Source: an uncultured Collinsella sp. (lineage in GTDB: Bacteria > Actinomycetota > Coriobacteriia > Coriobacteriales > Coriobacteriaceae). Taken from it: DNA of 20,931 bases. Numbering within the stretch: the stretch's first letter is position 1; each line of letters starts with the position of its first letter. The stretch is taken from the NCBI GenBank assembly GCA_902495265.1, contig CABUWR010000002.1, positions 1-20,931 of the forward strand, given 5' to 3'. Position numbers and translations under genes: made by a program. The notes under the pieces were generated by a model, which was not told where the DNA came from, did no database searches, and saw only the letters and a list, made by a program, of their open reading frames with translations. Of the stretch, positions 12,632 to 20,931 are shown piece by piece.

Positions 12632-12674
12632 CCTATTCCTCAAAACTGAAATATTTTCGTTTTTGAGGAATAGG
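12632..12674. repeat. 43-nt palindrome, copy 1
   Basis: CCTATTCCTCAAAA (12632-12645) and its exact reverse complement (12661-12674) flank a 15-nt AT-rich centre that is itself nearly symmetrical. It lies 86 bp before copy 2 and 154 bp before the ATPase gene. Confidence 0.9.
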
Positions 12675-12717: not shown

Positions 12718-12760
12718 CCTATTCCTCAAAACTGAAAAATTTTCGTTTTTGAGGAATAGC
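12718..12760. repeat. 43-nt palindrome, copy 2
   Basis: Same 14-nt arms as copy 1 except the last base (C at 12760 breaks the outermost pair). It ends 25 bases before the ATPase start codon and 13 bases before its ribosome site. It would therefore lie in the promoter or 5' leader, consistent with an operator or leader hairpin. Confidence 0.9.
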
Positions 12761-12785: not shown

Positions 12786-13982
12786 ATGAAACTCATCAAT
12801 AGAACGTCATATATGGACACGTTGACGAGCCTTATTGGCGTGCCGGACATCAAGGTCATAACGGGCATCCGCCGTAGCGGTAAGTCAAAATTGCTCGAGG
12901 CCCTCCGCGATTACGTGGAGGCGAATCTGTCCAATTCGAATGTCATCCATATCAATTACAACCTCGACGAGTTCGAGGGCCTGCTCGAATATCATGCCCT
13001 GCTCGCCTATGTAAAAGAGCATCGAGTGTCCGACAAGCAAAACTTCCTGCTTATCGACGAGGTTCAGATGTGCGACGGTTTTGAGCGTGCGATCAACAGC
13101 CTTCACGCATCCGAGCAGTACGACATCTTCATCACCGGATCGAATGCCTTTTTGCTGTCGAGCGATCTGTCGACGCTCTTTACGGGGCGCACCTTCGAGA
13201 TCGAGGTTTTCCCATTCTCGTTTGAGGAGTATCGTCTCTATGGCGACGAGAGCGAGGTCGACCGCGACTTCGATGAGTACGCGAGAACCGGCGGCATGTC
13301 TGGCTCTTACCCTTATCCACTGCAGGAGCAGCGCTATCAATATCTCTCCAACGTCTTTAAGACGCTCATTGTGAGAGATATCGTGCAGCGGCATAACGTG
13401 AGAAACGAATCGGCGCTGCTGCGCATTGCCGATTACATGATGGACAACGTTTCCAACATTACGTCGGCACGCAACATTACTGATGCATTAAATGCGGATG
13501 GGCTAAAGATTACGAACAAGACCGTCGGCACGTACATGGGGTACCTGTGCGATGCGTTTGCCTTCTATAAAGTTCGTCGATACGACATTCGCGGCAAAAA
13601 ATACCTTAAGAGCGGCGAGAAGTACTATCTGGCGGACCATGCGTTTAAATACGCACTGCTCGGTACACGCGATATGGACTGGGGTCGCGTGTACGAGAAC
13701 ATGGTGGCCATCGAGCTGCTGCGCCGCGGATACGAGGTATACGTCGGCGTACTCTATAAAAAGGAAATAGACTTTGTAGCAATCAAGCGAAGCGAGAAGC
13801 TCTACATTCAGGTGAGCGACGACATCAGCTCGGATAAGACATTTGAACGCGAGATTTCACCACTGCTGAGCATTGGCGACGCGTACCCCAAGATGATTCT
13901 CGCCCGCACGCATCACGAGGCCACGGACCGCAATGGGGTGCAGATCGTGGACCTGGCGAGGTGGCTGTGCGGTGAGACGTAG
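12786..13982 (+). CDS. AAA-type ATPase with DUF4143 domain
   Basis: Member of the widespread AAA_14 + DUF4143 family of bacterial and archaeal ATPases whose function is unsettled; the C-terminal half resembles nuclease-like folds. The protein has 398 residues. Walker A is 'GIRRSGKSK' (27-35), and Walker B plus the catalytic glutamate is 'LLIDEVQ' (88-94). A sensor-like 'IFITGSNAFLLS' and an arginine in 'TGRTFEIEVFPFSFEEY' follow, the standard family signature. Near the C-terminus, 'YENMVAIELLRRGYEVYVG' and 'KKEIDFVAI' match the DUF4143 Asp/Glu-x-Asp element. GAGGAGG lies 5 nt before the ATG. It is a single gene with no operon partner, flanked by three 43-nt palindromes, which hints at a mobile or self-regulated cassette. 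Confidence 0.92.
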   Translation: MKLINRTSYMDTLTSLIGVPDIKVITGIRRSGKSKLLEALRDYVEANLSNSNVIHINYNLDEFEGLLEYHALLAYVKEHRVSDKQNFLLIDEVQMCDGFERAINSLHASEQYDIFITGSNAFLLSSDLSTLFTGRTFEIEVFPFSFEEYRLYGDESEVDRDFDEYARTGGMSGSYPYPLQEQRYQYLSNVFKTLIVRDIVQRHNVRNESALLRIADYMMDNVSNITSARNITDALNADGLKITNKTVGTYMGYLCDAFAFYKVRRYDIRGKKYLKSGEKYYLADHAFKYALLGTRDMDWGRVYENMVAIELLRRGYEVYVGVLYKKEIDFVAIKRSEKLYIQVSDDISSDKTFEREISPLLSIGDAYPKMILARTHHEATDRNGVQIVDLARWLCGET

Positions 13983-13990
13983 CAGAAAGC

Positions 13991-14033
13991 CCTATTCCTC
14001 AAAACTAAAAAATTTTCGATTTTGAGGAATAGG
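13991..14033. repeat. 43-nt palindrome, copy 3
   Basis: The arms are identical to copy 1 (13991-14004 and 14020-14033) and the centre differs by a few bases. It starts 8 bases after the ATPase stop codon and lies between convergent genes, so it may also act as a termination hairpin. Confidence 0.9.
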
Positions 14034-15053: not shown

Positions 15054-15130
15054 TGCGGGGTGGAGCAGTCTGGTAGCTCGCCGGGCTCATAACCCGGAGG
15101 TCGTAGGTTCAAATCCTGCCCCCGCGACCA
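15054..15130 (+). tRNA. initiator tRNA-fMet (CAU)
   Basis: A 77-nt cloverleaf with anticodon CAU (15088-15090) and encoded CCA end. Initiator status is shown by three consecutive G-C pairs (GGG/CCC) next to the anticodon loop and by the absence of a Watson-Crick pair at 1:72, here U1 and G72. It also closely resembles the E. coli initiator tRNA. The 3' 45 nt form part of attL and were contributed by the integrated element, which restores a complete gene. Confidence 0.96.
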
Positions 15131-15133
15131 AGA
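15086..15133. other. attL
   Basis: A 48-bp sequence identical to 20221-20268. It starts at the anticodon loop of tRNA-fMet (CTCATAACCC) and runs to three bases past the CCA end. The bases immediately outside differ (G here and T at the other copy on the left; C versus A on the right). Confidence 0.93.
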
Positions 15134-15139
15134 CCTTTT

Positions 15140-15180
15140 AGCAGCTCAAAGGCATTGTTCCTTTGGGCTGCTTTCTTTTA
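15140..15180 (+). terminator. element-supplied terminator for tRNA-fMet
   Basis: AGCAGCTCAAAGG (15140-15152) pairs with CCTTTGGGCTGCT (15160-15172), one mismatch or wobble, with a 7-nt loop followed by TTCTTTTA. It lies 10 bases beyond the tRNA and inside the element, replacing the presumed native terminator now at 20277-20304. Confidence 0.7.
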
Positions 15181-15192
15181 TGTCTTCGATTT

Positions 15193-15228
15193 ATAGCAGC
15201 GTTATAGCAGGCTTTGTAGCAAATAGCA
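15193..15228. repeat. left-end arm-type repeats (TRTAGCA)
   Basis: Four near-direct repeats of (T/A)TAGCA at roughly 10-11 base spacing (TATAGCAGC, TATAGCAGG, TGTAGCAAA, ATAGCACTG). They are similar to groups at 15676-15695 and 20049-20078. Their place near attL suggests arm-type integrase sites. The rest of 15229-15600 holds no credible gene; a perfect GGGGTACCCC palindrome at 15281-15290 is its only clear structure. Confidence 0.55.
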
Positions 15229-15603
15229 CTGCAAACTAAACTCAATTCGAGCCACGCTAACAGTTCGCTTGTTTGCTGCTGGGGTACCCCCCCATGCTCA
15301 AAGTAGGGCTATAGCCATAGGGCACCAATGACGGGAGCTAAATTACTGCGCGTTAGGGTTTTTTGGACGGGGGTGGTCTTCTTTTAGAAGAATAAGACCG
15401 ATATATTTAGAGTTTTTCGCTTTTGCGCCGAGTTGGGGGTATTTCGTCTGTCTTGTAGTTAAAAGCGCCAACTTGGGTAAAGACCAACGCTCATTATTGC
15501 TGTGCTGCGGCTCTGTGGTGGCATTACAAGCGGCTTTCTTGCCCCTGCCGCTTATCGGGTGCGTGCGAATTGGTCAAAGCGACAAATATCGCCATACAAC
15601 AAC

Positions 15604-15641
15604 GAAAAAGAGCGCCCGCCAACTGAATGGCAAGCGCTCTA
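15604..15641 (-). terminator. terminator after the resolvase gene
   Basis: On the minus strand GAGCGCTTGCC (15639-15629) pairs with GGCGGGCGCTC (15620-15610) through two G-T pairs, followed by TTTTT. It ends transcription of the minus-strand resolvase gene. Confidence 0.75.
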
Positions 15642-15675
15642 TTTCGTTAGCCTGTTCGGCTATGGGCGAATTGAT

Positions 15676-15695
15676 TGTAGCAGCGTTATAGCAGG
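15676..15695. repeat. arm-type repeat pair at the resolvase 3' end
   Basis: TGTAGCAGCGTTATAGCAGG, nearly identical to 20049-20068 and to 15193-15211. It lies 5 bases beyond the resolvase stop, so it could be an integrase arm site or part of a resolution site. Confidence 0.5.
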
Positions 15696-15700
15696 TGGTG

Positions 15701-16261
15701 CTATCGCTCGATGCCCTTTTTCTTGAGTTCCCTATAAAGCGGGGCGCGGCTTACGCCTGTGCGCTCGCATATCTCCTTAACGGAAATGCCGCCGTCTTTG
15801 TATAGCCTTACGGCGGTGTCCATCTTGTCTGGGTCTGTGGCGGGTCTGCCAAACTGCCGCCCGCGTGCTTTTGCCGCCGCGATGCCCTCTGCTTGTCTTT
15901 CCTTAATCAATTCGCGCTCAAACTGCGCCATAGCCGCGCACATTGCAAAGAAGAAACGTCCCTGTGGGGTGCTGGTATCGGTGCCCTCTTTGATGGATAC
16001 AAGCGAAACGCCGTTTTCCTCAAAGCGCTCGGCAAGACTGAATAGTTGCTTGCTGCTTCGCGCCAAGCGGTCATAACTGCAAACTACAACAGTATCGCCC
16101 TTCCTTAACTGTCCAAGCATTTTGTCGAGTTCGGGGCGGCTTTCTTTAACGCCGCTGATTTTATCGCTAAAAATCTTATCAACGCCACGTTTAGCCAACT
16201 GGTCTAGCTGCCGGTCTAGGTTCTGTTCTTTGGTGCTAACGCGTGCATATCCAAATATCAT
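15701..16261 (-). CDS. serine recombinase (resolvase/invertase family)
   Basis: A 186-residue small serine recombinase of the Pin/Tn3-resolvase type. The nucleophile is Ser9 in 'GYARVSTKEQNLDRQ'. The conserved 'SYDRLARSS' is at residues 62-70 and 'QGRFFFAMCAAMAQFEREL' lies before the long dimerisation helix. A C-terminal Hin-like helix-turn-helix ('ISVKEICERTGVSRAPLYREL') follows 'GRQFGRP'. All catalytic arginines expected near Ser9 and Arg68 are present. AAGGGGG lies about 7 nt before the ATG. It has its own upstream gap of about 280 bp and a downstream terminator, so it is probably a separate unit. In a small element it could resolve multimers or invert a segment; no inverted site pair was identified. 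Confidence 0.94.
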   Translation of the reverse strand: MIFGYARVSTKEQNLDRQLDQLAKRGVDKIFSDKISGVKESRPELDKMLGQLRKGDTVVVCSYDRLARSSKQLFSLAERFEENGVSLVSIKEGTDTSTPQGRFFFAMCAAMAQFERELIKERQAEGIAAAKARGRQFGRPATDPDKMDTAVRLYKDGGISVKEICERTGVSRAPLYRELKKKGIER

Positions 16262-16318
16262 TACTTGCCCCCTTTGTAGGTGTATCTAAAAGTCTAGGGC
16301 ATTTCGGGACAATAATAA

Positions 16319-16387
16319 AGAGACAGTTAAAGAGACGGTTAAAGCGCCTGTTTTTTGCTTTGTTCTCGGTTGCTTATCGCCGTCTCT
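16319..16387. repeat. tandem 12-mers and inverted partner upstream of the resolvase
   Basis: AGAGACAGTTAA (16319-16330) and AGAGACGGTTAA (16331-16342) are tandem. CCGTCTCT (16380-16387) is an inverted partner that could form a stem with the second copy. It lies 58-126 bases upstream of the resolvase start and is a candidate operator or recombination site. I see no gene in 16262-16544. Confidence 0.4.
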
Positions 16388-16544
16388 TAACGTGTGCTTT
16401 TGGGACACGCTCAAATGCCAACATCTTTGTTGCTATATTGCCAAACTGCCGCTGATACGCTGATAAACTCGAACGGTGCTTGCGGTCGCATAGGGCTATA
16501 ACGATTCGCACGCCGCCCGCCGCGCCCGTGTTTCCCGTCACGGT

Positions 16545-17297
16545 CTATTGCTTTCGCGCTTCAACTAAAACACTGAAAGAATCAAGCAGCTGTTCCTTGG
16601 TATGGTTGAGCGATGCAATACAAGCGTTAATCTGCTCTATAGCTGGTTCGCCTGTTGTCATGTCCTCAAGCGCTATCGCCGCAGCTTCTTTAATCGCCCG
16701 TTCGAGATTTGGCGCATATAGCAGACCAAATCGCTCGCGGTCGTTTAGCTTTCCGACAATTCCAATGAGATAACATTTCAATTCAAGCTCTTGTGCCTGT
16801 CTATAGAATTGATACGGTGTATTGAAGTTCTCACGCGTCCACCCTGCCAACGCTTCACCTACAGATTCGCCATGCCTGTATTCGATATCCCAAACGTCAA
16901 GAAAAGGCGAACTTGAATTATCAAGCTCTCGCAGTATAAGAGCGCGTTCCTTTCCATTGCATAGCAAGGGGTTGTTATAAACGCGTTTGCAAATCCCTAT
17001 GTCGATGCTTAAAGCGTCTGCAAGCTCTGTTGCGTCGCCTATGTCGAGCGCTTCAAGGATTTGACAAAACTGGGTATTTGCGTTCTGCACGTGTCTCTCG
17101 TCTTGGTGTAACGGTTCGCACAAATCTAAATCGCTTGGCAAGCGTGCCAAATCATTAAAGGCTTGATTTGCAAGGCTCATTTCCTCCCGAAAGCACGTCT
17201 CGCACGTGCTGAAAGCATCAAAGCATGATTCGCGCTCATCGTTTCGATTGTTGATTGAGCATTGCATGATTGAATCGTCAAGTAGGCTTCTATTCAT
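16545..17297 (-). CDS. unrecognised element protein, 250 residues
   Basis: I do not recognise this family. It is a soluble, acidic, mostly helical-looking protein with no signal peptide or membrane segment. The N-terminal 80 residues are cysteine-rich, including 'CFDAFSTCETCF' (a Cys-x6-Cys-x2-Cys cluster that might bind metal), with further cysteines in 'LCEPLHQ', 'FCQIL' and 'LLCNG'. The middle reads 'WDIEYRHGESVGEALAGW'. The C-terminus is helical. An ATG five codons upstream (17312) lacks a ribosome site, whereas GGAG sits 9 nt before ATG 17297, which is chosen here. It follows the replication-like gene within 25 bases, so it is co-transcribed. It is the only candidate for cargo in the element. 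Confidence 0.75.
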   Translation of the reverse strand: MNRSLLDDSIMQCSINNRNDERESCFDAFSTCETCFREEMSLANQAFNDLARLPSDLDLCEPLHQDERHVQNANTQFCQILEALDIGDATELADALSIDIGICKRVYNNPLLCNGKERALILRELDNSSSPFLDVWDIEYRHGESVGEALAGWTRENFNTPYQFYRQAQELELKCYLIGIVGKLNDRERFGLLYAPNLERAIKEAAAIALEDMTTGEPAIEQINACIASLNHTKEQLLDSFSVLVEARKQ

Positions 17298-17320
17298 TTC
17301 GAATCGCTCCATTTGTCTAT

Positions 17321-17752
17321 TTAACGTTGGCGGTTACGCGCTGCCGTTCTGCCGCCTTTGCTACCGTTTAATCGGGCTTTTCCTATCGCAAGCGCCGATT
17401 CATCAACAAGTGGCATACCCCGCCGCCCGCTGCTGCCGACAGTTACAAGTTCAAGGTCTATTAGCGTTGCTATAAAGGCTTCGTATTCCTCGGGGCAGTT
17501 GAAGTGCAAACCGAGCTGAAAGCCCCTGTAACCCTGTTCACCCTCGCGCGGTATGGCGTGTGTGGTCGTGTTCGAAAGCAGTTCAACAAGCCGCCAATAA
17601 CGCCCGTAGGACTCCATTCCACCGACTGAAATAAGCTGATTGAAATAGGGGTTCCCGGCGTTAGCGGCTTCGTGCTTAACCCATGATATGGGGCAGTTGG
17701 AAAGTGCCCGCGCCGCGCACGCTTCACCTGCTTTGTTTAGTTCATCGCCCAT
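17321..17752 (-). CDS. small replication-initiator-like protein (DnaD/DUF4373-type winged helix)
   Basis: A 143-residue protein. The central part 'MESYGRYWRLVELLSNT' (46-62), then 'GFQLGLHFNCPEEYEAFIATLIDLELV' in two helices (77-103), resembles the winged-helix N-terminus of phage and plasmid replisome organisers. In those a Tyr/Gly-x-Tyr-Trp helix precedes a 'leading to low residue' helix. The basic tail 'NGSKGGRTAARNRQR' is also typical. The link is by pattern only and is weak. The N-terminus has several cysteines and 'PISWVKHEAAN', consistent with such domains. The start has a GGGCGG upstream. It begins 12 bases after the HTH gene stop, forming one operon with it and the following unknown gene. 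Origin-like iterons at 18301-18333 lie upstream. Confidence 0.6.
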   Translation of the reverse strand: MGDELNKAGEACAARALSNCPISWVKHEAANAGNPYFNQLISVGGMESYGRYWRLVELLSNTTTHAIPREGEQGYRGFQLGLHFNCPEEYEAFIATLIDLELVTVGSSGRRGMPLVDESALAIGKARLNGSKGGRTAARNRQR

Positions 17753-17764
17753 AGCCGCCGCCCG

Positions 17765-17971
17765 TTATAAGCCGAAATATCGGCACACTTGGTCGCGGTT
17801 AAGACGAATCATATTTCCGCGAATCCTTACCACCGATAGCTGCCCGTCTTTAACAAGGTTGTAAACAGTGCCCTTTGAGATTTGCAAGCAGTTTGCAACC
17901 TGCTTAACGGTTACAAGCTCTTGAAGTTCTTTCAAGTTGCGCGGTGCTTCTTGCCGCTCAGTGCTTTTCAT
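17765..17971 (-). CDS. excisionase-like helix-turn-helix protein
   Basis: A 68-residue protein with a MerR-like / HTH_17 excisionase DNA-binding domain: 'LVTVKQVANCLQISKGTVYNLVKDGQLSVVRIRGNMIRLNRDQV'-type layout (helix-turn-helix, then wing with Arg and Asn). Such proteins act as directionality factors for tyrosine integrases or as repressors. The open frame reaches 18058, but ATG 17971 with GAAAGGGG 7 nt upstream is the natural start. It is first in a three-gene operon and preceded by a 14-bp perfect palindrome (18001-18014) that may be its operator. It is the only obvious regulator of the element. Confidence 0.85.
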   Translation of the reverse strand: MKSTERQEAPRNLKELQELVTVKQVANCLQISKGTVYNLVKDGQLSVVRIRGNMIRLNRDQVCRYFGL

Positions 17972-18000
17972 TAGTGCCCCTTTCAACGTGTCGGGTTGGA

Positions 18001-18014
18001 CGAATCGCGATTCG
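18001..18014. promoter_or_regulatory. palindromic operator candidate
   Basis: CGAATCGCGATTCG is a perfect 14-bp palindrome, 30 bases upstream of the HTH gene start. A TATATA-like -10 (near 18022-18028) lies just upstream of it on the minus strand. This arrangement is expected for a repressor site in the leader. The surrounding gap 17972-18546 holds no credible gene. Confidence 0.5.
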
Positions 18015-18300
18015 ATGGGGCTATATAAACATGAAAGCGTTCTATGGGCTTCTAGCAAACGAATACGCCAATAGGAAATTTAATAAGCTATATCATTCAG
18101 AAAAGATTGAATTAGTAGCGGGCGTGATTAAAAGAGACTCGCCAAAACGTAATACGTGATCTCGGGTAATTACTAAAGCGATGGTTTTAGGTTGGGTTAA
18201 CCCTTAAAGGTATGTTTACCAGCGCTTTTTTATTACGTTAAAGTGTGTAAATGAGTTTTTGATTAACATGCGAACTTCATAACTCAGCGCGTTAAAACAA

Positions 18301-18333
18301 GTTTTCAACAGGTTTTCAACCAGTTTTCAACAG
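18301..18333. repeat. three 11-bp iterons, origin candidate
   Basis: Three direct repeats of GTTTTCAACAG (the second ends CA) follow one another without gaps at an 11-bp period. They resemble iterons or DnaA-box-like TTTTCAACA sites and stand in the gap ahead of the replication-like gene. Nearby are an inverted pair AACGTAATA/TATTACGTT (18146-18154, 18231-18239), the palindrome GGGTTAACCC (18194-18203) and an AT-rich stretch. Confidence 0.5.
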
Positions 18334-18454
18334 CGCTTGCCGTCTTCTTTTCTTCTAATAAGGTTGCACGCCCGCCGCGCCCGCGCTTGCCCTTAAAGGC
18401 GCAAGCGTGGCGGGCTGCTGCTATCTAGTCTTATCTGTTCTTATCTGTATAGGC

Positions 18455-18525
18455 ACCCTATAGGGTCGCTATACAAAGAGTAAAGCCACCCTATAGGGTT
18501 GCCCTATCGGGCGTATAGGGTGGCT
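18455..18525. repeat. repeated ACCCTATAGGGT palindromes and hairpin
   Basis: The perfect 12-nt palindrome ACCCTATAGGGT occurs at 18455-18466 and 18488-18499. AGCCACCCTATA (18484-18495) also pairs exactly with TATAGGGTGGCT (18514-18525), enclosing a smaller GCCC/GGGC hairpin. It starts 22 bases beyond the stop of the small minus-strand gene and could terminate the integrase operon, though the T tract is poor. A GC-rich imperfect palindrome precedes it (about 18370-18416). Confidence 0.6.
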
Positions 18526-18546
18526 GGGTTTTAGCTGTATGGGCGT

Positions 18547-18768
18547 TTATTTATCGGTGTTGAAGATTGTATTTTCTAGCTTGTATGTTGCGGCTTCAAT
18601 AACAGCGCCCAACGTATAGTAAGCATCGCCAATATGCTTGTATGGGCTAACGCCCGTATCGGCTGAATCCGCAAGCATTTTAAGCAGACACGCCGCGCCG
18701 TTTAAGGCTGAAATAGCATCCTCTGGTTCATCGTTGAACGTTATTAGTGCGTTGCTCTGTTTATCCAT
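18547..18768 (-). CDS. small element protein, 73 residues
   Basis: Unrecognised. Two amphipathic helices ('DAISALNGAACLLKMLADSA' and 'YYTLGAVIEAATYKLENTI') joined by a short loop suggest a small helical-bundle protein, perhaps a partner or antitoxin-like factor; that is a guess. AAAGGA lies about 9 nt before the ATG. It begins 33 bases after the integrase stop on the same strand, so it is probably co-transcribed with the integrase. Confidence 0.7.
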   Translation of the reverse strand: MDKQSNALITFNDEPEDAISALNGAACLLKMLADSADTGVSPYKHIGDAYYTLGAVIEAATYKLENTIFNTDK

Positions 18769-18801
18769 GTTGCCATGTCCTTTCTGGGTGTAGAAATATA
18801 C

Positions 18802-20013
18802 TTACTTGCTCGGTGTCTGGTTGCATCTCATTAGGCACTCTACGATGCCCGCTGCCCGCCGCTTCGCGTCTGGGTCTGCACTTGCATACACGTTTAGCGT
18901 CATTGCTGCGTTGGCGTGTCCTAGGTTGCTTGAGACGGTCTTAACGTCCATGCCGTGGGCAAGCGCCAATGTTGCCCACGCGTGGCGTAAGTCGTGAAAA
19001 CACAATCGCCGCCCCTCGTTGCCACGTGTGCCGAGCATCTTTGCTAACGATGCCCAATCTTTAGACAGTCTGTCTGGGTGGTAGTATCCGAGTGCATCGC
19101 CAAGGATGAAAGAATTGGGGTTAAGCGATGCCATATTATCGGCGAATACCTGCCGTTGCTTTTCCTGCCATTGCTCAAGCACTTCTAGCAAAGCATCGGG
19201 CAGAACAACGTCCCTTGCTTTGTCGGTCTTTGGCTGCTTGATATATGCACCTCCTTTGCCGAGTCCAATTGAGCGCCTAATCCATATAACGCGATTGTCC
19301 GTGTCAATGTCTCGCCATTGCAGCGCGCATACCTCCCCGCGCCGTATTCCTGTGTTTAGTGCTATGTATGCCGCGACAGTGACGGGGGACAGCTCAAGCA
19401 GATTTAGCTTGTCGAGAAGTTCGGCAAGCGCCGTTTCATCTAGTGCGTTAATGCCCTGCTTTTTGTTGACACGCTTGGGCGGCTTAACAAGGGATAGCGG
19501 GTTCTTGTCAATAACGCCTGTAGCGATAGCGTTATTGAGAACCATCTTTAGCAGTCTGAAAGCCTTTCCTATTGTGGAAGATGAACGGTCTTCTTTAACA
19601 AGCTCTGCCACCCATCTTTCAGCATCGATAGGCTGTAAATCTTTTATTCGTGTTTCGCTAAAAGCAGCGGTTATATATCTCAACGAATCGCGATAGCCGC
19701 TTATGGTTGACGGCTCAATAGCTTTAGTTTGTTCTTTTGCGTCAATGTATTGAGACACATATTCTGGTATTGGCATATCTGCCATAGGTACCGATACGCC
19801 GCCGTTGCGGGCTAGGCTTTCGCTGTGTTCTTGTTCCTTTTCTTGCCGCCATGCTGCAAGCTCTGCGTTTGCCGCCCGCTTTCCCGTAGCTTTTAGCGTG
19901 CGCGTTATGTATCGGCGTTTATTGTTGGTGTCGCGGTATGACAGCCGCCCGCGAAACTTGCCGCGTTTTTTATCTTCTAGCAATTCCTGCCCTGTGTAGT
20001 AAAGCGTGCCCAT
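18802..20013 (-). CDS. int: tyrosine site-specific integrase
   Basis: Catalyses integration and excision of the element at tRNA-fMet. It has 403 residues with an N-terminal AP2-like arm-binding region ('KFRGRLSYRDTNNKRRYITR'), a SAM-like core-binding domain ('PEYVSQYIDAKEQTKAIEPS' to 'LKMVLNNAIATGVIDKNPLS') and a catalytic domain. Catalytic residues are Arg224 in 'TGIRRGE', a lysine in 'PKTDKARD', His340 and Arg343 in 'HDLRHAWATL', His366 in 'LGHANAAMTL' and the nucleophile Tyr376. The open frame reaches 20067, but ATG 20013 has GAAGGG about 7 nt upstream and leaves the arm-type repeats at 20049-20078 outside the gene. It sits beside attR and reads inward. Confidence 0.95.
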   Translation of the reverse strand: MGTLYYTGQELLEDKKRGKFRGRLSYRDTNNKRRYITRTLKATGKRAANAELAAWRQEKEQEHSESLARNGGVSVPMADMPIPEYVSQYIDAKEQTKAIEPSTISGYRDSLRYITAAFSETRIKDLQPIDAERWVAELVKEDRSSSTIGKAFRLLKMVLNNAIATGVIDKNPLSLVKPPKRVNKKQGINALDETALAELLDKLNLLELSPVTVAAYIALNTGIRRGEVCALQWRDIDTDNRVIWIRRSIGLGKGGAYIKQPKTDKARDVVLPDALLEVLEQWQEKQRQVFADNMASLNPNSFILGDALGYYHPDRLSKDWASLAKMLGTRGNEGRRLCFHDLRHAWATLALAHGMDVKTVSSNLGHANAAMTLNVYASADPDAKRRAAGIVECLMRCNQTPSK

Positions 20014-20048
20014 AGCCAAACCCTTCAAGAACATTTCATATTCGTGTT

Positions 20049-20078
20049 TGTAGCAGCGTTGTAGCAACGTTGTAGCAA
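20049..20078. repeat. right-end arm-type repeats
   Basis: Three tandem copies of TGTAGCA (TGTAGCAGCGT, TGTAGCAACGT, TGTAGCAAAC) at 11-bp spacing between the integrase start and attR. They match the left-end groups. ATAGCAGCTCA at 20146-20156 also echoes TTAGCAGCTCA beside attL (15138-15148). Confidence 0.6.
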
Positions 20079-20220
20079 ACAGCTGATTCTAAAGAACTAA
20101 CTGAATGATTAAACGCTACGCAACCGCATGAACTGTATGAACAAAATAGCAGCTCAGATACCATGTTATCACATGAGCGAAGAGCTATTAGATTTGCAGA
20201 ACGGAATAATATAAAGCACT

Positions 20221-20268
20221 CTCATAACCCGGAGGTCGTAGGTTCAAATCCTGCCCCCGCGACCAAGA
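20221..20268. other. attR with orphan 3' half of tRNA-fMet
   Basis: Exact 48-bp copy of 15086-15133. It carries the tRNA from the anticodon loop to the CCA end but has no 5' half or promoter in frame with it, so it is a remnant and not a tRNA gene. Confidence 0.93.
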
Positions 20269-20276
20269 ACTTGCAG

Positions 20277-20304
20277 CTCGTCGGCCTAGCCGGCGAGTTT
20301 TTTT
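20277..20304 (+). terminator. displaced native terminator of tRNA-fMet
   Basis: CTCGTCGGC (20277-20285) pairs with GCCGGCGAG (20289-20297), one G-T pair and a 3-nt loop, followed by seven T. It lies 11 bases beyond the CCA of the orphan half, where a tRNA terminator would be in the uninterrupted locus. Confidence 0.85.
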
Positions 20305-20353
20305 GTTATTTGGGGACCGTGTTTTCGGTCCAATTCTCGGCTTCTCAAACAAA

Positions 20354-20731
20354 ATCTCGATCTGTAACATCTAGACCCGATTTGGGCGGCTGGGTGTTAC
20401 AGATCGAGATATGCCGGTGGGTTGGGTCCCGTTTATCTAAATCTGTAACACGAGGGGCGGATTTTGCCGAGTTGTTGTTACAGATTGAGATTTTCTGGCA
20501 GACGGGTCCCGTTTATCTCGATCTGTAACATCTGGAGCCCATTTTGCCGAGTTACTGTTACAGATTTAGATTTTTCGGCAGGCTAGATTGGTTTGTCTTG
20601 ATCTGTAACATCTAGGGTCGTTTTTGGCCTGTAGGTGTTACAGATCGAGATTTTCCGACGGAACGCTCCCGTTTGTCTCGATCTGTAACAGTAAGACCCG
20701 GTTTTGCTGAGTAACTGTTACAGATTGAGAC
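20354..20731. repeat. array of five 57-nt palindromic units
   Basis: Units at 20354-20410, 20435-20491, 20515-20571, 20595-20651 and 20675-20731. Each has a 16-nt left arm (RTCTNRATCTGTAACA), a 25-nt centre and a 16-nt inverted right arm (TGTTACAGATYKAGAY). Intervals are 23-24 nt, giving a period of 80-81. The inner 10-11 bases of every arm (ATCTGTAACA) are invariant and changes cluster in the outer 6. Centres and intervals are related between units (TTTTGCCGAGT and TCCCGTTT recur), so this is not a CRISPR. No gene is visible in 20305-20872; the array is the main content. Confidence 0.9.
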
Positions 20732-20872
20732 AAACCGACGGGCCGCCTCGCCCCATCCACCTGCCGCCACCTGATATTCGCCGATTTTCGTTGTGCCGCC
20801 GTGCTCCCATGCCATATCCTCTAGACAACTACGCGGCATCATCGCCGCCGCGCCTACAAGAGAGGAATGTCC

Positions 20873-20931
20873 ATGACCGCACCTGCATCCAAGCTGCTCC
20901 AGCCCATTACGGTTGGCCCCCTTGAGCTCAA
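20873..20931 (+). CDS. start of an Old Yellow Enzyme-like flavin oxidoreductase (partial)
   Basis: Only the first 19 codons are in the window. The translation begins 'MTAPASKLLQPITVGPLEL', which matches the N-terminal pattern of NADH:flavin oxidoreductases / enoate reductases, where 'L-x-P-x-x-I-G-x-x-x-L-K-N-R' leads into the TIM barrel. AGAGAGGA lies about 8 nt upstream of the ATG. The product assignment is tentative because so little is visible. It is the first gene downstream of the palindromic array, whose last unit ends about 140 bases before this start. Confidence 0.55.
   Translation, partial: MTAPASKLLQPITVGPLEL

Follow-up and report, generated by a model that had tools for sequence, protein, structure and literature searches.

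Pneumococcal BOX elements are dispersed repeats that contain a variable number of inner units. Three further kinds of repeat serve for comparison: BIME-2 elements, which are made of regular tandem units (PMC2817692); the GTAG and CGTC super-families of REP sequences, in which a short palindrome ends on one side in a GTAG or CGTC tag that stays unpaired (PMC3733652); and REPINs, in which two inverted conserved ends are held apart by a spacer of set length and compensatory changes are common (PMC3116915). The array described here lies at positions 20354-20731 of a stretch of 20,931 nt, referred to as the window. The window was obtained from an uncultured member of Collinsella, a common human gut genus. 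The protein encoded at 1745-2731, a putative ribose-phosphate pyrophosphokinase, agrees with this origin: it shares 84% identity with a Collinsella bouchesdurhonensis protein, and the hits that followed reached 71 and 70%. A sequence-only reading of this DNA had pointed out the array and had proposed, among other roles, an operator cluster or a partition-type site.

RESULTS

The window array and its relatives in Collinsella

The array consists of five units of 57 nt, each made of a 16-nt arm, a 25-nt spacer and a second 16-nt arm, and the distances from unit to unit are 81, 80, 80 and 80. The coordinates thus bore out the earlier description of five 57-nt units with 16-nt arms and a period of 80-81 bp. 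Unit 1 occupies 20354..20410, with core half-sites at 20360-20369 and 20395-20404 on either side of the 25-nt spacer. Unit 2 (20435..20491) has its cores at 20441-20450 and 20476-20485, unit 3 (20515..20571) at 20521-20530 and 20556-20565, unit 4 (20595..20651) at 20601-20610 and 20636-20645, and unit 5 (20675..20731) at 20681-20690 and 20716-20725. From core to core, the gap between units 1 and 2 measures 36 nt (20405..20440), and those between units 2 and 3 (20486..20520), 3 and 4 (20566..20600) and 4 and 5 (20646..20680) measure 35 nt each. The ATCTGTAACA core or its complement was exact in all ten half-sites and the outer arm bases varied, as the sequence-only reading had also stated; a scan of the whole window did not find the core elsewhere at up to one mismatch. 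A putative oxidoreductase gene, a label taken over from that reading, starts downstream on the + strand and is cut by the window end (20873..20931).

A search for two exact cores separated by a spacer of 15-35 nt gave matches in 17 of 58 genomes. All 17 were among the 35 Collinsella genomes, and no match came from the 23 genomes of the order that belong to other families. Within a set of 43 Collinsella genomes, 22 contained 17-44 perfect units, one (G014) contained a single unit and 20 contained none. As a chance control the pattern was read backwards: it had no match in any of the 58 or any of the 43 genomes, and no pair in all the DNA fetched for the measurement of geometry. The single unit of G014 is a truncated copy that lies at the tRNA-Met locus, and no other perfect unit was found in that genome. 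In G001, the nearest genome to the window among those compared (29% of sampled 31-letter words), 63 of the 64 matches to TCTNRATCTGTAACA lay within arrays and the remaining one was a one-unit remnant. Seventeen arrays were mapped in each of two genomes. The plasmid collection held one matching record, NZ_OY725717.1 (Collinsella aerofaciens, 'plasmid 6', 899,693 bp), with 29 units at up to three mismatches in 13 clusters; the record is probably a piece of chromosome. Despite its plasmid label it carries tuf, nusG, ribosomal protein genes and gltB. No array match was obtained in the phage collection, and viral contigs gave one match, a 38,886 bp contig with two units. We infer that the carriers form one clade, since in a comparison at one locus their principal matches showed 90-100% identity to the query, against 70-89% for the other genomes.

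Two outcomes had been named beforehand as contrary to a conserved element, namely an array unique to one strain and a repeat family already catalogued. The search across Coriobacteriia that had been proposed instead detected a dispersed Collinsella family, present in many genomes. Over the array no Rfam family reached its gathering score, and the five weak matches obtained in 20200-20800 at E up to 1 stayed far under theirs. Among the matches listed for published Collinsella repeats, drawn mostly from non-subscription literature, no description of such arrays was found, nor was one apparent in the available part of PMC7771070 (Collinsella aerofaciens, repetitive extragenic palindromic).

Fixed distances and selective conservation

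Among the 245 distinct half-site pairs in all the DNA fetched for measurement, 239 had a spacer of 25 nt; the exceptions were 24 nt (two), 26 nt (two) and 16 nt (two, both overlapping true units). Of 162 gaps between units, 157 were 35 nt (88 gaps) or 36 nt (69 gaps) long, the others being 34 nt once, 29 nt twice, one of these in an unrelated genome, and 44 nt twice. When all pairs were compared in both orientations, mean identity was 29% for the central 15 nt of 35-nt gaps (88 gaps) and 42% for the spacers. The five bases at each edge of the 35-nt gaps showed 84% identity. Distance is preserved where much of the intervening sequence changes, and near-exact spacing combined with drifting sequence at many genomic sites leads to the prediction of a protein able to gauge distances of 25 and 35/36 bp. 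At the first loci fetched, arrays held 2-5 units in 47 of 50 array rows, which include one array twice and leave out single units with more than three mismatches. As for the three single-unit rows, one fits the cut-off copy of G014 and one has three mismatches.

The symmetrised consensus of 166 distinct units was WWTRTCTCRATCTGTAACAnCTAG with an A/T-rich centre. Substitutions were counted in 34 reciprocal unit pairs from G001, G018, NZ_OY725717.1 and the window. Only orthologous units with no more than five core mismatches and with an identity of 80% or higher across 105 nt were counted, so that all the following rates are lowered and the core is somewhat favoured. The 10-nt core differed at 12 of 680 positions (1.8%), with none of 340 in core positions 6-10, and the spacer centre at none of 102. 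The rest of the spacer differed at 44 of 544 (about 8%), the TCTCR part at 27 of 340, the A/T-rich flank at 28 of 340 and the outer gap at 232 of 1360 (17%). In the TAG part (23 of 204) conservation did not exceed that of the surrounding spacer. Given how few the differences in core and centre are against those in the outer gap, we read this pattern as purifying selection on core and centre, with the gap changing about nine times faster.

Relation to RAYT genes and to other repeats

Units of this form might be REPIN-like, non-autonomous mobile DNA: a carrier-specific RAYT (Y1 transposase) would recognise the conserved inverted ends and would once have copied the units round the genome, their conservation then reflecting this recognition. 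REPINs likewise have two conserved inverted ends and a length-sensitive spacer (PMC3116915), and all 13 clusters of NZ_OY725717.1 lie between listed genes of its incomplete gene table. Genes of the Y1 family of Pfam were present in 30 of the 35 Collinsella genomes, and one RAYT orthologue (L122 4506-5531, orthologues L281-L301, 68-100% identity) was detected in 21 of the 22 carriers and in none of the 21 other genomes, where the best match reached 42%. Such co-occurrence supports a REPIN-like origin, yet it is also compatible with a clade that has many genes of its own, and may do no more than mark that clade. However, half-sites were found at none of the transposase loci: 20 Y1 loci (including the four of G001 and the two of G018, with 5 kb per side where the contig allowed) contained no exact half-site and no half-site pair, and all 21 RAYT orthologue loci (about 1.5 kb per side, one shorter) lacked a 15-nt extended half-site at up to three mismatches. 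Perfect units also persist where the RAYT has stops or is absent. The orthologue contains stops in six of 21 genomes (G004, G059, G062, G064, G013 and G029), which hold 33, 35, 42, 39, 43 and 44 perfect units, respectively, and G007, which lacks the orthologue and has another Y1 gene, holds 23. Upkeep of the arrays therefore does not seem to need the RAYT. In addition, compensatory changes, described as common in REPINs (PMC3116915), were rare in the arrays, and a different hairpin repeat flanks the Y1 genes of G009 and G014. A REPIN-like identity of the arrays is the main alternative, a genuine possibility that we nevertheless consider unlikely. The stops in six of the 21 genomes with the orthologue may also be a sign of a domesticated transposase being lost.

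The hairpin repeat, CCACCACAAAGG-(GGTGCCTGTCCC)-CCTTTGTGGTGG, bounds some arrays and persists alone where the array is missing (L231, L232, L242, L139, L140). Since its loops flank the Y1 genes of G009 and G014 on both sides, the REPs belonging to Collinsella RAYTs may be these loops instead of the arrays. Of 58 arrays, a set that includes mutual orthologues and one array split in two rows, 17 had such a loop no further than 250 nt away, and it faced outward in 16 of 20 instances; the other 41 arrays, the window's included, had no such loop within 250 nt. Loops were seen on both sides of three arrays (L231, L232, L194) and were opposed in two of them. Over the whole fetched sets loop density was 0.35-1.8 per 10 kb, and 3.1 in the single viral locus. 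In G059, five of seven arrays had hairpins, the arrays there having been picked as apparently differing between genomes and forming no random sample.

A second family of spaced inverted repeats, ATTCCTCAAAA, was observed in the window at 12635-12671, 12721-12757 and 13994-14030. It has a 15-nt inner spacer, its first two units are 86 bp apart, and it brackets an AAA_14/DUF4143 ATPase gene (12786-13982). The ATTCCTCAAAA pattern occurred in 13 of the 35 Collinsella genomes, including G025, which has no ATCTGTAACA units. DUF4143 ATPases were also considered as hosts of the arrays in four genomes, and none was directly adjacent among those compared; the DUF4143 gene nearest to an array in G001 was about 4 kb away, and in G018 one lay about 1.2 kb away with a tRNA-Met gene between. 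Samples of 200 kb were taken from two non-carriers. In G028 no 8-mer pair was repeated three or more times at one distance, and G026 contained three other repeated inverted-repeat sequences (L213, L214, L217, L220), which are hairpin families.

RNA pairing

The arrays might instead act as transcribed hairpin RNA, as a bidirectional terminator, an mRNA 3'-end stabiliser or a multi-hairpin small RNA. Seven folds, of the five units on the + strand and of two on the other strand, predicted strong RNA hairpins (z -3.9 to -10), a property inherent to any inverted repeat. Moreover, 10 of the 13 clusters of NZ_OY725717.1 face at least one gene 3' end, and a slight excess of pairing over shuffled units was obtained at arm positions 0, 1 and 2 (z 2.5, 3.1 and 3.3). 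At most arm positions the same comparison gave nothing clear, and several flank and spacer positions paired less than the shuffled units did. Across 14 arm positions of the 166 units, departures from the consensus were one-sided 114 times and two-sided 10 times; six of the 10 were complementary, five of these at the variable position -1. Since changes in the arms are seldom compensated, RNA pairing is not what is kept, and together with the shuffles this rarity ruled it out as the main selected trait. The proposal of the sequence-only reading that half-sites rather than RNA pairing are conserved was accordingly supported, both by these counts and by the ortholog differences. A spacer length fixed almost to the base, the position of three of the 13 clusters between divergent genes and the sub-threshold Rfam scores likewise speak against an RNA element, which we judge improbable.

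Genomic context

The 13 clusters of NZ_OY725717.1 were located between convergent genes in five cases, co-directional genes in five and divergent genes in three. Their neighbours include gltB/Nramp, tuf, a DXS gene, lacG, glgP and others; contexts in other genomes rest partly on mechanical ORFs. Ordinary transcription-factor operators of one regulon would agree with inverted half-sites at fixed spacing that lie upstream of some genes. These orientations, and neighbours with no evident shared function, make this explanation very improbable, and the same variety of adjoining genes does not favour the suggestion of an operator specifically for the flavin oxidoreductase. Distances from dnaN in two genomes leaned towards the origin and were not significantly non-uniform (p=0.065 and 0.13; p=0.47 and 0.19 with clusters collapsed), so that the proposed partition-type site found no support in chromosome placement. 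A search for DnaA_N found none in two genomes and one record.

Variation of arrays and gene content between genomes

The tRNA-fMet gene named by the sequence-only reading as the neighbour of the array was only partly confirmed. A tRNA-Met sequence does lie beside the array, but it is a 45-nt 3' fragment (20221..20265, + strand) that lies outside the array, at the right-hand end of an integrated element, while the intact tRNA-Met gene is found at 15054-15130, 5 kb from the array. Judging from its anticodon stem, the tRNA is plausibly the initiator. The integrated element occupies 15086-20265 in the tRNA-Met gene and encodes a resolvase (15701-16261), an HTH_17 protein (17765-18058) and a tyrosine integrase (18802-20067); two further ORFs had no Pfam match. 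The fragment at 20221-20265 marks the ancestral junction of tRNA and array. In 11 of 30 tRNA-Met loci of relatives, an array of 1-5 units was found about 95 nt past the tRNA end, and G001, behind an insertion of its own, and the window have the array as well. For four further carriers in this set, the sequence ended at a contig end (G007, G010 and G005) or held other DNA (G013). The range of 1-5 units at one locus supports the change in tandem unit number that the suggested tandem duplication implied. In the non-carriers G032 and G028 (L165, L166), short GCGACANTGTCGC-like palindromes lie on the 3' side of this tRNA-Met gene.

At another locus 12 carriers had an array and eight had none, two more (G062 and G004) being not resolvable. 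With eight of 20 resolvable carriers lacking it, the array is dispensable at that locus. In a weak locus tree the eight empty sites and seven occupied ones formed one group (support 84/96), and the five other occupied ones branched outside it; because of these five, loss is likelier than gain. In the 12 occupied sites a hairpin loop (GGTGCCTGTCCC or its complement) lies to the right of the array, and in those of G027, G010, G059 and G019 a second one is found close to its left. The eight empty sites retain a single loop, in one orientation in four and in the opposite one in four, and two well-supported sister genomes differ in the orientation of the loop at the empty site.

Differences in gene content were observed between arrays. 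The order array-genes-array in NZ_OY725717.1 corresponded in G001, where the genes are absent, to two units 80 bp apart or to a single unit (L193, L200), gene loss by recombination between arrays being the likelier direction. The arrays thus mark places where gene content differs within the group, and their register was kept where neighbouring arrays differ between genomes. Inert tandem repeats homogenised by recombination and gene conversion, which would agree with this register and with the variable unit number at one locus, are scarcely credible, because conversion would homogenise gaps and spacers too, yet both differ strongly between loci and it is cores, centre and spacing that are kept.

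DISCUSSION

The arrays constitute a family of fixed geometry in which core and centre change slowly, arm changes are seldom compensated, arrays are present at shared loci and absent at some, and the register is kept across recombined arrays. To this we would give about an even chance: that the array is an intergenic element of operator-like half-sites for a putative double-strand DNA-binding protein, perhaps architectural in role. It is the binding of a protein, its oligomeric state and the architectural role that we infer. A putative sequence-specific protein would read an extended half-site of about 20 bp (TCTCRATCTGTAACAnCTAG). Two such half-sites, inverted and 25 bp apart around the A/T-rich centre, could be occupied by a single dimer or by a dimer of dimers, and mostly two to five units at 80-81 bp would build a regular nucleoprotein array. 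Counted from the start of one site to the start of the next, the distances measured by the protein would be 35 bp within an inverted pair and 45-46 bp from one unit to the following one. The most likely role would be in local chromosome architecture or as a boundary at operon ends, preferred here because the neighbouring genes have no evident common function. A history in which units of mobile origin were later recruited would fit the data too.

A more far-reaching version of the protein-binding element, which we hold to be doubtful, is a lineage-specific scaffold in which the putative protein polymerises on arrays at many intergenic sites, keeping a register of 80-81 bp, and links operon boundaries to one another. 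If this were so, the conserved trait of the scaffold would be its register and not the sequence between the sites, and a chromosome-organising element would be limited to part of Collinsella, including C. aerofaciens. We know of no description of such an element.

When set beside the known repeat systems, the Collinsella arrays share with BOX elements their dispersal and the variable number of inner units, and differ in that no separate end modules were recognised. The consensus lacks, outside the arms, a tag of the kind that PMC3733652 describes for the GTAG/CGTC super-families. Regular tandem units are common to the arrays and to BIME-2 (PMC2817692), but the Collinsella unit is a spaced inverted pair and not a set of alternating REPs. 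The arrays resemble REPINs in having two inverted conserved ends, a variable spacer of set length and one co-occurring RAYT orthologue. They differ from REPINs in their 80/81-bp tandem phasing, with 17-44 perfect units per genome, in the small number of compensated changes, in that no half-sites were found near the RAYT and in that units are kept despite RAYT stops. The BIME-1/RIB elements of enterobacteria (REP, IHF site, REP) are intergenic like the arrays, some of which have mostly outward hairpin repeats on one or both sides; the Collinsella units, however, are inverted pairs of an unrelated motif, and two opposed hairpins around an array are rare, with none at the window. In its logic, the protein-binding element that we favour is comparable to the protein-binding BIME/RIB elements.
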